In this document: positions 4,737 through 64,000 of the stretch, piece by piece
Numbering within the stretch: position 1 is the first letter of the stretch
Layout: each line of letters begins with the position of its first letter
From: Lysobacter changpingensis
GTDB taxonomy: Bacteria > Pseudomonadota > Gammaproteobacteria > Xanthomonadales > Xanthomonadaceae
Length of the DNA stretch: 64,000 bases
NCBI RefSeq assembly: GCF_017308985.1
Contig: NZ_JADWPE010000001.1
Coordinates: forward strand, 186,001 to 250,000
Direction: 5' to 3'
Notes under the pieces: model-generated
What the model was told of the DNA's origin: nothing
Databases searched by the model: none
Seen by the model: the letters and a program-made list of their open reading frames with translations, nothing else
Made by a program: the position numbers and the translations under genes

Positions 4737-6034
4737 CCTGCCCTCGCCCGTTCCACCCGGTCCTTCCACTCGTCCTTGAACTCGGCCCACCAGTAACTCA
4801 ACTGCGCGCCGACGAAGCCGACCGGCTTGATCGCCGACACCAGCCCGTAGTCGCTGAGTTCGCGCCAGCGCGGATCGCCGTTCGCGATCGCACTGGCCAG
4901 AAGCTCGCCCGCGAACGTCGTCGGCGCCACGCCGTGGCCACCGAACGCCTGCGCCAGCCACAGCCCGTCGTCGATCGCGCCGATCTGCGGCATCTGGTGG
5001 CGCGCGTAGCTCATCAGGCCCGACCACGCATGATCGATGCGTACGCCGTCCAGCTGCGGGAAGACCTTGAGCATGTCGCGGTACAACACCGCTTCGACCT
5101 CCGCCGGCGAGCGGTCCAGCACCGAGATGCGACCGCCCCACAGCAGGCGCGTGTCGGGCAGCGGGCGATAGTAGTCGAAGGCGAAACGCGTGTCGTACAC
5201 GGCCGCCCGCGTGGTCATGACGTCGTCGAGGCGCGCGCCCAGCGGCTGCGTCACCATCACGTAGGTGGCGATCGGCAATACGCCGGCATCCACCTCCGCG
5301 CGCAATCCGGCGAGGTAGCCGCCGCACGCGAGCACGACCAGGTCGGCTTCCACCACGCCTTCCGGCGTGCGCACGCGCCAGCCGGGGCCGGCACGCTCCA
5401 GCGCGACGGCCGGTGTCTGTTCGTGGATCGCGACGCCCTGCGCCATCGCGGCGCGTGCGATGCCGCGCGCGTATTTCAGCGGATGGAAGTGGAACGCCCG
5501 GGGTTCGAACAGGCCGTCGTGATAGCGCTGCGTGTGCACGAGCGAACGCAGGCGCTCGCGCGGCATCCATTCCCAGTGGACGCCGAATTGCTGTTCCAGC
5601 AGGTGCTGGCGCTCGCGCAGCACCTGCGGGTCGCGGAACCAGTTCGCCCAGAGCACGCCCGCATCGACGCGATCGCAGTCGATGGCGTAGCGATCGGTAC
5701 GCGCGCGGATGAGCTCGACCGCGTCGGTCGTTCCCGAATACAGTAGGCGCGCGCGTTCGGGGCCAAGGTCCTGCAGCAGGCTGTCCTCGCCGCGCGAGAA
5801 ACCGCCGAACACGAAACCGCCGTTGCGCCCGGACGCACCGAACCCGACGCGTTCCGATTCGAGAAGCACCACGTCGCGCACGCCGCGCTCGGCCAGTCCC
5901 AGCGCGGTGTTCAGGCCGGCGAAACCGCCGCCGACGACGCACACGCTGGCGGCGACCGGCCCACGCAACGGTCCGAACCCGAGTTCGCGCTCGGGAACGG
6001 TCGCCAGGTAATAACTGGTGTCCGGGCCGCTCAT
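4733..6034 (-). CDS. FAD-dependent oxidoreductase, DAO family (PuuB/OrdL-like)
   Basis: Flavin amine or amino-acid oxidase of 433 residues. The FAD-binding Rossmann motif [19 protein letters not shown] is at about 33-51, followed by the [10 protein letters not shown] segment typical of the glycine oxidase / gamma-glutamylputrescine oxidase group. The C-terminal [12 protein letters not shown] motif is the second FAD contact. Its closest functional analogue is PuuB/OrdL, which oxidises gamma-glutamylputrescine, but no puuA, puuC or puuD is beside it, so the substrate remains open. The four-base overlap with csaA downstream indicates an operon. There is no signal peptide. Confidence 0.8.
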
Positions 6035-21215: not shown

Positions 21216-21308
21216 TTTGTAGCCCGTGTAAGCGAAGCGCACCCGGGTTTCGGACGGCGTGAGGTTGACGTTCCCCGGGTGCAGCCTCTGGCCTTACCCG
21301 GGCTGCCA
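21216..21308. repeat. GTAG-type REP pair
   Basis: Left copy 21216-21247 carries GTAGCCCGTGTAAGCGAAGC and then GCACCCGGG; the right copy (about 21273-21308) is inverted and more diverged. The pair lies between the TraB-family stop and the shared terminator. It is the same element as at 39199, 58360 and 61546. Confidence 0.85.
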
Positions 21309-39198: not shown

Positions 39199-39230
39199 CC
39201 CCGGGTGCGCTTCGCTTACCCGGGCTACAT
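39199..39230. repeat. Single GTAG-type REP
   Basis: CCCGGGTGCGCTTCGCTTAC followed by CCGGGCTAC is one arm of the element found as pairs at 21.2, 58.4 and 61.6 kb. No inverted partner is beside it. Confidence 0.85.
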
Positions 39231-58359: not shown

Positions 58360-58457
58360 TTTGTAGCCCGGGTAAGCGAAGCGCACCCGGGGCTTTCGCG
58401 TGACGCGACGGGAAGGCTTCCCCGGGTGCGGCCTTCCGGCCTTGCCCGGACTACAAG
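58360..58457. repeat. GTAG-type REP pair
   Basis: Left arm 58360-58391 carries GTAGCCCGGGTAAGCGAAGC then GCACCCGGG; the right arm (58420-58457) is inverted but diverged in its middle. It lies just past the dcp terminator. Confidence 0.9.
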
Positions 58458-59885: not shown

Positions 59886-60767
59886 TCAGCCGCCGAGCCG
59901 CTTCATCAACCCGCGCGCATCGAACGGCGCGCGGACCTTCGCATCGTTGTCGAAATAGCAGTAGACATCGCGCGGCCGTCGCGCCGGCCGCGTGCGTTCG
60001 ATCCGCGGCACGTCGTTCGGCACGCCGCCGGTGCGCCAGGTCCGGATGCGCCGCGCCCAGGTGTCCAGCGCTTCATCGCCGTAGCCGCTGGCGTACAGTT
60101 CCTCGTCGCCGTGCAGGCGGATGTAGACGAAGTCCGCCGTGACGTCGCCGACGAACGGAAACTTCCGCGCGGTGTCCGCCACCACCAGCGCGATGTTGAA
60201 CTCGCGCAGCAGCGCGGTGCATTCGGGCACGAGGAAGCTTTCGTGCCGCACTTCCAGCGCATGCCTCAGCGCGTGTTCGCCCTTCGCCTTCAGCACGCTG
60301 CGGCCTTTCATCAGTGTCACTTCGCGTCGTCGCGCGAGCTTCTCCGCCTGCGTCGTATCCGTGGGAAGCAGCTCGAAGAATCCGCGCAGGCGCTGCGCAT
60401 CGAAACGGAAATTCGGCGGCAGCTGCCACAGGATCGGCCCGAGCTTCGGCCCCAGCGCCAGCAATCCCTGCGCGCAGAACGAGGCGAGCGGCGTCTCCAC
60501 GTCCTTCAGGCGCTTGAGGTGCGTGAGGAAGCGGCTGCCTTTCACGGCGAAGACGAATTCGTCCGGCGTTTCGTCGCGCCACAGGCGGAAGCTTTCGGGG
60601 CGCTGCAGCGAATAGAACGTGCCGTTGATCTCGATGCTGTGGAAGCAGCGCGAGGCGTATTCCAGTTCACGCCGCTGCGCCAATCCTTCGGGATAGAACA
60701 CGCCGCGCCACGGCGCGTAACGCCAGCCGGAAATCCCGATGCGTACCCTGCCCCGCGGCGTCGTCAT
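59886..60767 (-). CDS. DUF72 domain protein (YecE-like)
   Basis: 293 residues of the TIM-barrel-like DUF72 family. Conserved segments: GISGWRYAPWRGVFYP, FHSIEINGTFYSLQRPES, FAVKGSRFLTHLKRLKD, ILWQLPPNFRFDAQRL, ALEVRHESF and DFVYIRLHGDEELYASGYGD. E. coli YecE is a member; activity is unknown, though DUF72 genes often lie by DNA-repair genes. Its ATG overlaps the TGA of the UdgX-type glycosylase by four bases (60764-60767), so it is likely translated with it. Confidence 0.88.
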   Translation of the reverse strand: MTTPRGRVRIGISGWRYAPWRGVFYPEGLAQRRELEYASRCFHSIEINGTFYSLQRPESFRLWRDETPDEFVFAVKGSRFLTHLKRLKDVETPLASFCAQGLLALGPKLGPILWQLPPNFRFDAQRLRGFFELLPTDTTQAEKLARRREVTLMKGRSVLKAKGEHALRHALEVRHESFLVPECTALLREFNIALVVADTARKFPFVGDVTADFVYIRLHGDEELYASGYGDEALDTWARRIRTWRTGGVPNDVPRIERTRPARRPRDVYCYFDNDAKVRAPFDARGLMKRLGG

Positions 60768-61462
60768 CGAGGGCGTCCCGCGCGCTGGAGCAGCGACAGA
60801 TCGGCGACGAACTGCGCGTAGGCGGCATGGCGATCCTCGTCGCCACGCTGGCGCAGCACGAACGAGGGATGCACCGTCGCGAGCACGCGCGTGCCGTCGG
60901 CAAGCGTCTGCCAGGCGCCACGTTGCGCCATCAGCCGGAATTTGCTGCCGAGCACCGAACGCGCGGCGATCGCACCGAGACAGACGATGACGTCGGGTTG
61001 CACGGCCGCGAGTTCGCGCTCCAGCCAGATGCGGCAGGCGGCGCGCTCGGACGCGTCGGGACTCTTGTGCAGCCGCACCTTGCCGCGGCGTTCGAACTTG
61101 AAGTGCTTCACCGCGTTGGTGACGTAGAACTTCGCGCGATCCAGGCCGAGTTCCGCCAGCGCGCGATCGAACAGCTTGCCCGCCGGCCCGACGAAGGGCT
61201 GTCCGCTGAGGTCTTCCGCATCGCCGGGCTGTTCGCCGATGAACAGCACGCGCGCGTCTTCAGGCCCTTCGCCGAACACGGTCTGCGTCGCGGGCTTCCA
61301 CAGGGGGCAGCGCTTGCAGCCTTTCGCCGCCTCGCGCATCGCGGCGAGGCTGTCGTCCACCGGCTCCGGCGCCTGCCCGTCGCGCACAGCGACGCGCCTG
61401 CGTACGCGCTTCGCGGGCGTTTTCGGGGGTGAGGGTTTCGACGGCGACTTACGCGTGGCCAA
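60764..61462 (-). CDS. udgX: Uracil-DNA glycosylase, UdgX type
   Basis: 232 residues. Motif GEQPGDAED (76-84) and the loop RRGKVRLHK (125-133) with His132 fit UdgX, which uses this histidine to stay covalently bound to abasic DNA after removing uracil. Iron-sulfur cysteines are probably Cys49, Cys52, Cys143 and Cys161. HPS at 198-200 is the final motif. The first 28 residues are Ser/Thr-Pro-Lys rich (KSPSKPSPPKTPAK), an H1-like tail. It heads a two-gene unit with DUF72. A UDG family 4/5 reading is the alternative, but the RxxH loop argues for UdgX. Confidence 0.85.
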   Translation of the reverse strand: MATRKSPSKPSPPKTPAKRVRRRVAVRDGQAPEPVDDSLAAMREAAKGCKRCPLWKPATQTVFGEGPEDARVLFIGEQPGDAEDLSGQPFVGPAGKLFDRALAELGLDRAKFYVTNAVKHFKFERRGKVRLHKSPDASERAACRIWLERELAAVQPDVIVCLGAIAARSVLGSKFRLMAQRGAWQTLADGTRVLATVHPSFVLRQRGDEDRHAAYAQFVADLSLLQRAGRPR

Positions 61463-61545: not shown

Positions 61546-61632
61546 CTTTTGTAGCCCGGGTAAGCGAAGCGCACCCGGGATGCGTCACGCTTCGTTCCCC
61601 CGGGTGCGCTTCGCTTACCCGGGCTACAAAAG
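61546..61632. repeat. Perfect 34-bp inverted GTAG-type REP pair
   Basis: Left arm 61546-61579 and right arm 61599-61632 are exact reverse complements over all 34 bases, with a 19-base spacer. It is the most intact copy of the element in the window, and lies 10 bases past the lhr stop. Confidence 0.95.
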
Positions 61633-61642
61633 TCTGGGCGCG

Positions 61643-64000
61643 TCAATGCGTCGTGCGCACCACCGGGGCCAGCGACGGCACCGAAATCGGCGCGGCGAAC
61701 CCCGCGATCGAACGCTCCGGCTCGCGCAGCAGGATGCGGCGAGCCTTCGCTTCCTCATCGTGCGGCAGCTCGACGAGCAGATTCACCTCGCCCGACACCA
61801 GCGTCGCCAAGGGCACGCCATCGCGATACAGGATGCGCGAGCCCGCCAGGCGCGGCACCTTCTCGCCGCTGACGATGGTGCCGACGAGATTGAGCGGGTC
61901 GACCGCCGACACGCACACCATCGCGCCGTCCTGCGGACGCTGGCGGATCTGGCGCATCAGGCCGATCGCTTCGGGCAGCGCGAACTGCTCGCCCGACAGG
62001 CCCGAAATGAAGCGACCGCCGCGGATCTCGCCGCGCGCTTCCAGGCGATGGTAGACGCGCACGAGTTCGCGCCACGGTGGCAGCCACTGCGCTTCGCGTT
62101 CGAGCAGGCGCCAGCACACCACACCGTAGCGACGCAGCAGCGTGCGCGCGACGTGTTCGACGTCCTCCGGCGTGCGCGCCTGTTCCGCCGACGCGTTGCG
62201 GCGGATCAGCGCCCAGCGGCCCGCATCCTCGATGCCGAACAACGCGGCACGACGACGACGGCCGTGGTTCGTGGCGCTCGGCCGCTTCGATGCGGGCACC
62301 AGCAAGGCGCGCAGGCCGGCGTAGCTGTCGCAATGCACGCGTCCGCGCGCGACGAGTTCGGCAAGCGCGTCTTCGAGTTCGGTGCGCAGCAGATGCGCGC
62401 CGCCGACGAGTTCGTCGAAGAACGACGCGCCGTTCTCGCCGAGGTAGTCGACGACCTTCTGCGCGCGCGACGACAGCGCTTCGTCGGCTGCGGGCGGCGG
62501 CGCGAGTCGCGTCCACACGGCGGCATCGCGACGCGGCAGCAGCACGACAGGCGTGGCGCGCACGGGCGTGCTGCCCTTCGCGGCGCCCGTGTCGGCCGGG
62601 CCCGCGCGCAGGCGCGTCCACAGCGTGCGGCCGGCGGTGCACAGGTCGTCGAGCCACGAGATCGAATAGTCGTTGACGCGCGTGGGCAGCAGTTCGCTTT
62701 CCCATGCGGCGGCGGGCGCTTCGAAACCTTCCAGCTGCGCGAGCACGCCGGCGAGGGCTTCGGGCCCGTTCACGCGCGCGCTCGGCGCGACGCGCTGCCA
62801 GTCGAACAGGAAGCGCATGAAATCGCGCGGCGCGACCGGTTCGATCTCACGGCGCAGCCGCTTGAGCGTGTAGCGGTGTATGCGCGCGAGCAGATGACGT
62901 TCGCACCACTCGTCCACGCCGGCGCCCGGCGTGAAGCGACCCTGCATGACGTAGCCTTCGTTCTGCAGGCGCAGCAGCGCGAGGTCGACATCGCTGCGTG
63001 GCAGCGAAAGATCGTCCGCGATGACCGACGACGGTGTCGGCCCAAGACCTGTCAGGCGCGAGCGCAGCAGTTCGACCAGCGCGTCCTCGCGATCCCACGC
63101 TTGCGCGGCGTATTCGGCCGGCGCGTCGATCGGGGTTTGCATCGGCACGTCGGCGAAGATCGCCTGCAACTGCGGCAGGCGTTCGGCGGCGACCCACAGG
63201 CCGTTGCCGTCGCTGCCGCGCTGGCTTACGGGCTTGTCGGGCGCGGGCGGCATCAGCTTCGTCGCGCGATGCGCCTTGACCAGGCGCGACAGCCAGTCGG
63301 CCCAGCCGTTCTCGCGCACTTCGCGCTCGGTGACGACGCCCAGCCCCATCAGCGCCTCGTGCATTTCGTCGGCGTTGCGGACCTGCGGCCAGCATTCCTC
63401 GCGCACGGCGTCGATGGCGTCGGCGTCGAGGCGGCCGAGATCGTCCGCGCTTTGCGCATCGGTGTAGCGACGCGTCTGCACGGCCTGCGTGCGGCGCTCT
63501 TCCAGCGGCGCGTCGTCGAGGAACGCGTACGGACGCGCGTTGAGGATTTCCGCGGCGAATGGCGAAGGCGCGCTCAGGTCGCGTGCAACGACCTGCACCT
63601 CCCCCGCTTCCATCGCGCGCAGCACATCGAGCCAGCCGTCGATGTCCATCGCTTCGTGCAGGCAATCGTGCAGTGTCTGCGCGACCAGCGGATGGTCGGG
63701 CACCTCGCGCTCGCCGACGAGGTTTTCCGCGCACGCGACCTGGTCGGGGAAAACCGTCGCGAGCAGGTCCTCGGACTTCATGCGCTGCAATTGCGGCGGC
63801 ACCTTCTTGCCGCCGACGAAACGCGGCAACGCGAGCGCCGTGGTCGCGACCCAGCGCCAGCGTACGCCGAACAGTGGCGCGTCGAGCAGCGCCTGGATCA
63901 GCACGTGCTCGGCGGACGCCGAATGCAGGTAGCTGGCGACTTCGATCAGCGGGAAGCTGTGGCTGGTGGACAGCGAGAGGATGATCGCGTCCTCGGTCGC
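61643..64000 (-). CDS. lhr: Lhr-family large DNA helicase, C-terminal part (5' partial)
   Basis: The reading frame runs without a stop to the right edge (base 64000 is the first base of a codon), so only the last 785 residues are seen. The helicase motifs are therefore outside the window. The visible part is the Lhr C-terminal region after the RecA folds: WVATTALALPRFVGGKKVPP, a winged-helix stretch and the later LVARGRVHCDSYAGLRALL, YGVVCWRLLEREAQWLPPWR, RGGRFISGLSGEQFALPEA and VSAVDPLNLVGTIVSGEKVP segments typical of long bacterial Lhr (about 1400-1550 residues). Lhr acts in DNA repair and crosslink resistance. It ends at a REP pair. Confidence 0.88.
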   Translation of the reverse strand, partial: ATEDAIILSLSTSHSFPLIEVASYLHSASAEHVLIQALLDAPLFGVRWRWVATTALALPRFVGGKKVPPQLQRMKSEDLLATVFPDQVACAENLVGEREVPDHPLVAQTLHDCLHEAMDIDGWLDVLRAMEAGEVQVVARDLSAPSPFAAEILNARPYAFLDDAPLEERRTQAVQTRRYTDAQSADDLGRLDADAIDAVREECWPQVRNADEMHEALMGLGVVTEREVRENGWADWLSRLVKAHRATKLMPPAPDKPVSQRGSDGNGLWVAAERLPQLQAIFADVPMQTPIDAPAEYAAQAWDREDALVELLRSRLTGLGPTPSSVIADDLSLPRSDVDLALLRLQNEGYVMQGRFTPGAGVDEWCERHLLARIHRYTLKRLRREIEPVAPRDFMRFLFDWQRVAPSARVNGPEALAGVLAQLEGFEAPAAAWESELLPTRVNDYSISWLDDLCTAGRTLWTRLRAGPADTGAAKGSTPVRATPVVLLPRRDAAVWTRLAPPPAADEALSSRAQKVVDYLGENGASFFDELVGGAHLLRTELEDALAELVARGRVHCDSYAGLRALLVPASKRPSATNHGRRRRAALFGIEDAGRWALIRRNASAEQARTPEDVEHVARTLLRRYGVVCWRLLEREAQWLPPWRELVRVYHRLEARGEIRGGRFISGLSGEQFALPEAIGLMRQIRQRPQDGAMVCVSAVDPLNLVGTIVSGEKVPRLAGSRILYRDGVPLATLVSGEVNLLVELPHDEEAKARRILLREPERSIAGFAAPISVPSLAPVVRTTH

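Follow-up and report, generated by a model that had tools for sequence, protein, structure and literature searches.

The perfect inverted repeat between the lhr-like and udgX-like genes of Lysobacter changpingensis is probably a doublet of the REPIN/BIME type, belonging to a GTAG family like that of E. coli and spread in trans by the RAYT of the same genome, which entered this site before the split from its relative G001 and one of whose arms may have been copied from the other in place. Perfection at this locus evidently does not mean youth; the pair looks like an old insertion that has been kept or renewed in perfect shape. The window, by which we mean the whole analysed stretch of 64,000 nucleotides, contains at 61546-61632 two inverted 34-nt arms, 100% complementary and separated by 19 nt, so that the first-pass annotation was right to describe a perfect 34-bp inverted pair beside lhr, unmutated over 68 bases. 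It had also counted four loci of this GTAG type, three facing pairs and one single, and the same four are found here, at 21219, 58363 and 61551 for the pairs and 39200 for the single. With the 29-nt core as reference the pair at 61551 has 0 and 0 mismatches.

Table 1. Features of the window discussed in the text.
Feature	Position	Strand	Remarks
Left arm	61546..61579	+	Leader CTTTT followed by 29-nt REP, GTAG outermost
Spacer, 19 nt	61580..61598	.	Matches the G001 spacer of this locus in inverted orientation only
Right arm	61599..61632	-	100% complementary to left arm
lhr-like helicase gene, 3' part	61643..64000	-	ORF ends 10 nt from the repeat; continues past the end of the window
udgX-like gene	60764..61462	-	TIGR03914, 291.5 bits (cut-off 189.95); TTG start in the ORF list
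Facing pair	21219..21306	.	Arms with 1 and 4 mismatches, both changed; site also occupied in G001; L. arvi matches weakly, L. soli not at all
Single consensus arm	39200..39228	-	Absent from G001, L. soli and L. arvi
Facing pair, short-loop and long-loop arm	58363..58454	.	0 and 2 mismatches, second arm long-loop; absent from G001, L. soli and L. arvi

The core of each arm is GTAG followed by a 25-nt imperfect palindrome, 29 nt in all. A leader GC(T/C)NTT ahead of GTAG is frequent in the REP family and present in most consensus copies; among arms of consensus sequence, with A or C allowed in the loop, G occupies position -6 in 96% of 56 arms of the L. changpingensis genome and 98% of 61 in G001, and C position -5 in 86 and 92%, respectively. 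Since the leader is common in the family, the extra 5 nt on each side need no special event. Folded as single-stranded DNA, a short-loop arm leaves GTAG unpaired ahead of a 7-bp stem with an AA bulge, while a long-loop arm has an AA/GC internal loop. Arms of 29, 31 and 33 nt occur, with inner stems of several lengths, and they also combine in mixed pairs.

The two genes that enclose the pair are read from the same strand, with the udgX-like gene downstream of the repeat. The lhr-like gene matches NF007284 over part of the model, with a score under the cut-off. Folded as RNA on the lhr strand the pair reaches -76.7 kcal/mol (z -11.5), which none of 200 shuffles equalled, and it lies 10 nt past the lhr ORF between co-oriented neighbours. 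The hairpin might thus have been retained for a role in an lhr–udgX transcript, in 3' end protection or attenuation. Any perfect pair would give such a fold, however, L. soli and G009 keep lhr and udgX together without the pair, and the copy in L. arvi has decayed, and we regard this explanation as improbable. A search of the window against Rfam gave no match.

How common is the element in the genome? Allowing up to three mismatches, the 29-nt core is present in 399 copies and the reversed pattern in none, so that the copies are not due to chance, and the reading of the element as a GTAG-type REP in a facing pair is upheld. If a perfect 24-nt core and a spacing of 2–30 nt between the arms are required, 40 facing pairs are found (each listed on both strands). 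At the same spacing there are 45 stem-perfect pairs, of which 33 have both arms identical to the 29-nt consensus. Over 800 kb sampled from each genome, arms number 115 here and 100 in G001, and facing pairs 36 and 33, respectively. Inverted doublets prevail in a plain count over 1.6 Mb, where 138 of 215 arms lie within facing pairs no more than 45 nt apart. More elaborate arrangements occur in the L. changpingensis genome (G000). At G000:C1:34710-35171 there are four tandem long-loop/short-loop pairs ∼122 nt apart, in a BIME-like array. At G000:C1:385727-386203 four direct arms ∼150 nt apart, three of them consensus, are interspersed with another repeat, GTCATTCCAGCGAAAGCTGGA / CCCGGCGAAGGCCGGGAT, of a type present in several gaps.

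The transposase was expected to lie outside the window, and this is the case. The only match in the genome at E ≤ 0.01 is on contig C2, at G000:C2:977018-977524, so the window has none at that threshold, and the gene that the first-pass annotation had proposed to seek is thereby found. The gene is 80% identical to the RAYT of G001; an initial reading of the repeats as orphan REPs was dropped once the G001 query had revealed it. It has no stops and encodes about 167 amino acids, with the HxH motif MPDHLHA and a late tyrosine in DYVHFNPVKHG, whose roles are familiar from the family. The protein scores 157.7 bits against NF047646 (cut-off 80) and matches the TnpArep structure PDB 4er8, the only solved chain found, with E = 4e-45. 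The Pfam model Y1_Tnp (PF01797) gave no match in the genome at E ≤ 0.001, with two candidates scored, and the G001 protein reaches 21.7 bits with it, just under the cut-off of 23. A Pfam search alone would therefore have labelled the L. changpingensis genome RAYT-less.

The RAYT gene is located between pairs of the same REPs, and the same repeats flank it on both sides in all seven loci compared (L. changpingensis, G001, G003, G005, G007, G009 and G032). The two nearest arms are inverted in five of these (G003, G005, G007, G009 and G032). In L. changpingensis and G001 they point in the same direction, the opposite arm being the next one out; in L. changpingensis they lie at 4977 and 5618 of locus L189, both on the minus strand. 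In G032 (L127:1872-2548) the first 24 codons of the RAYT are present a second time, apart from the intact gene, and a REP pair separates the two, as if the start of the gene had been duplicated together with the repeat.

Within the genus, copy number is associated with a close RAYT. In six of 12 genomes the RAYT reaches at least 65% identity with that of G001, and these hold 399, 302, 220, 88, 83 and 62 copies of the REP; the other six hold 74, 16, 11, 11, 1 and 0. Among the latter, the RAYT of G002 is 49% identical, G004 and G008 contain fragments, and no match is found in G006, G010 or G011. The association gives an exact Mann–Whitney P of 0.004 over the 12 genomes, kinship being ignored, and the copies in the relatives were counted with the L. 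changpingensis consensus, which undercounts any divergent families in them. Beyond the genus the association is a loose one: copies turn up in 12 of 47 genomes, just 4 of the 12 encode a RAYT that reaches 65% identity, and in G014 there are 18 copies but no RAYT match at all. Taken together, the REP copies of L. changpingensis were very probably spread by its own RAYT.

G005 and G011, which are nearly identical at lhr, are close relatives with and without the transposase and so provide a natural test of RAYT loss. G005, where the RAYT is present, has 83 copies against the 74 of G011, which has no RAYT match. Of the 5501 bases of the G005 RAYT region, G011 has a 99% match to the final 692 alone; its 73 other matches to the region are short and repeat-like.

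The history of the sites can be followed by comparison with relatives. L. changpingensis, G001, L. soli and L. arvi are 90–91% identical over 74 kb, and, judged by the lhr protein, the closest named loci belong to L. soli and L. arvi (94%). In a tree of lhr L. changpingensis groups with G001 (support 0.925), whereas over the 74 kb it groups with MMG2 (support 1.000) and G001 is next; since the trees disagree we treat G001 as a close relative and not an established sister. We took the 25 clusters of the 400-kb L. changpingensis contig and placed them in 400 kb of each relative (285 kb for L. soli), calling a site empty when the placed interval held no arm within nine substitutions. In G001 16 sites could be placed (9 unplaced), being 9 occupied, 2 weak and 5 empty. 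All 11 placed in L. soli (14 unplaced) are empty, with none occupied, while the 17 placed in L. arvi (8 unplaced) comprise 1 occupied, 1 weak and 15 empty. At 10% divergence too few of the empty sites were clean enough for the target sequence to be read. The first-pass annotation had reasoned that the absence of a RAYT together with identical positions in all relatives would indicate an old, fixed repeat; a RAYT is present, and the occupied fractions of 9/16, 0/11 and 1/17 show that positions differ between relatives.

At lhr itself the site is occupied in G001, with the core 21 nt from the lhr stop, compared with 15 nt in L. changpingensis, and L. arvi has a degenerate pair with arms 5 and 7 mismatches from the core. 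The gap 3' to lhr holds no arm in L. soli, G005, G009 or G011; G005 and G011 have no udgX beside lhr, and in L. soli and G009 the lhr–udgX gaps, of 109 and 130 nt, lack the pair. In the G001 gap (L160) a truncated extra arm adjoins the pair, perhaps through partial duplication.

At lhr the site is shared with G001 and, in degenerate form, with L. arvi, and the loci at 39199 and 58360 in the original numbering are missing from all three relatives; the site of the perfect pair is therefore probably older than those two. The suggestion that an unmutated copy may be recent is thus not supported. The loci absent from all three relatives are a single arm (39199) and a pair with one changed arm (58360), and the perfect pair is at a site shared with G001. 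We conclude that the doublet probably entered the lhr site before the L. changpingensis and G001 genomes separated. The contrary reading, in which a consensus pair inserted recently and independently into the L. changpingensis gap and the pairs of G001 and L. arvi are separate events, draws on the consensus arms, on a loop type and spacer length that differ from those of G001, on the four relatives with an armless gap, and on the two window loci missing from G001, L. soli and L. arvi, which indicate that gain here or loss there happens. Yet it would have to accommodate cores that lie 15 and 21 nt from the lhr stop, a spacer resembling the inverse of that in G001 (see below), and the 9 of 16 placed sites shared by the two genomes, and consensus arms are common everywhere. 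We consider a recent insertion rather unlikely.

Is perfection in itself special? Pairs with both arms perfect number 8 in 800 kb of L. changpingensis, where 6.7 would be expected if arms were independent, and 6 in 800 kb of G001, with 5.5 expected. As these counts are close to independence, and as 33 of the 45 stem-perfect pairs consist of two consensus arms, a perfect pair is ordinary in this genome. Nor are singles significantly less perfect than pairs in either genome when isolated arms are compared; perfect sequences make up 28/56 for pairs and 8/22 for singles in L. changpingensis (P = 0.32), and 30/54 and 8/17 in G001 (P = 0.59). Partner remnants were sought beside consensus singles, leaving out those too near the end of a stretch, and 4 of 15 exceed the 95th percentile of random segments.

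The two arms of a pair do tend to have the same loop. In L. changpingensis 37 of 45 stem-perfect pairs share the loop type, against 30.1 expected (P = 0.0003). Outside this genome the loop test was applied to G001 only, on all 47 pairs and with rare loops kept apart, and there the sharing is weak (30 pairs, 26.1 expected, P about 0.07). Such sharing would also arise if pairs spread as units. Changes outside the loop position are common to both arms in none of 20 pairs of 29-nt arms, so that a general correction within pairs is not found outside the loop position.

The lhr locus nevertheless has features that point to copying between its arms. In G001 both arms carry the same 1-nt insertion, reading GTAAGCGTAAGCGCA in place of the consensus GTAAGCGAAGCGCA, and among the 12 genomes of the genus this exact variant is found in those two arms only; three variants with a single mismatch to it exist. 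The first-pass annotation was right to offer conversion as the alternative to recency. We judge the chances about even that copying from one arm to its partner has happened at least once at this site. The donor could in principle have been some other copy in the genome, of which there are hundreds; 48 of the 115 arms in 800 kb of L. changpingensis equal the consensus, and spacer types recur between loci, a recurrence that the spread of pairs as units also explains. For the G001 variant, however, the 12 genomes contain no other exact copy that could have been the donor, and conversion from other copies seems to us unlikely as the source of the perfection.

The spacers point the same way. The L. 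changpingensis and G001 pairs at lhr differ in loop type and in spacer length, and their spacers align with a score of 21.2 when one is inverted and 8.5 when direct. The match was spotted by eye before it was tested, and involves 19 nt with one long gap; its score is not attained in any of 134 further comparisons (67 spacers in both orientations), and 1 of 5000 shuffles reaches it. The inverted L. changpingensis and L. arvi spacers score 16.0, which 5 of the 134 comparisons and 32 of 5000 shuffles reach, and those of G001 and L. arvi score 12.0 in either orientation.

The shared insertion and the inverted spacer would both fit template switching between the arms during replication, at this one locus and not as a general process. 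In the preferred reading, a RAYT acting in trans on REP doublets across the Lysobacter genome would bind one folded single-stranded arm, through the GTAG, the 7-bp stem and the AA bulge, and would cut at the CT beside it, by analogy with the biochemistry of E. coli TnpAREP. Once the doublet was in place, switching of the replication template across the hairpin would be the simplest route by which one arm is copied from the other, and it could also flip the spacer, in either L. changpingensis or G001. Homogenised arms and inverted spacers are named as outcomes of template switching between inverted repeats in the abstract of PMC8604942, although the cases described there and in PMC8794818 are yeast genes and RNA hairpins rather than REPs. 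A literature search under wording that joined REPs and quasipalindromes found nothing. A wider proposal would be that REP doublets in general are palindromes of long standing whose perfection is preserved in place by template switching between their arms, so that old ones can pass for new, the RAYT seeding them and the polymerase then maintaining them and flipping their spacers; we put this forward as a speculation that is more doubtful than not. If copying between arms were common, ages and transposition rates based on REPIN identity would need correction. As it stands, lhr is one case where perfection evidently does not equal youth.

Stenotrophomonas and Lysobacter are related bacteria, and the REPs of the former are an obvious point of comparison. 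Like the Lysobacter family, the Stenotrophomonas REPs and RAYTs (PMC2817692; GTAG-6 to -9 in PMC3733652) combine a GTAG or GTGG head, association with a RAYT and many copies. The palindromes described in PMC2817692 are perfectly complementary and interrupted only in the middle, whereas the Lysobacter stem has an AA bulge, and the REP sequences listed in these two papers differ from that of Lysobacter. Perfect palindromes are assigned to group 3, a Stenotrophomonas example included, in PMC8266576. The REPINs of Pseudomonas fluorescens SBW25 (PMC3116915) resemble the Lysobacter elements in being inverted doublets with a short spacer, present in many copies and served by a RAYT in trans. There the doublets are significantly more conserved than singlets, while the difference in Lysobacter is not significant.

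The closest likeness is to the REPtron Ec of E. coli, with its group 2 TnpAREP and its y, z1 and z2 REPs, as set out in PMC8266576 (a further source is PMC8049555). Group 2 REPs of E. coli have an AA–GC mismatch and are cleaved at CT. The Lysobacter REPs share the GTAG, the AA/GC irregularity in the stem, the several lengths of inner stem and the mixed pairs, together with one close RAYT that matches PDB 4er8; many copies carry C and T at positions -5 and -4 ahead of GTAG, which would suit cleavage at CT. No prior report of a REP-associated tyrosine transposase in Lysobacter was found under that wording. The differences lie in the stem, which is CCCGGGT/ACCCGGG in Lysobacter, and in the host (PMC8266576). 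On anatomy the Lysobacter family is of the E. coli type, and its RAYT, with its similarity to 4er8 and NF047646, resembles that of group 2; these data document in Lysobacter a REPtron of the E. coli type that numbers hundreds of copies.
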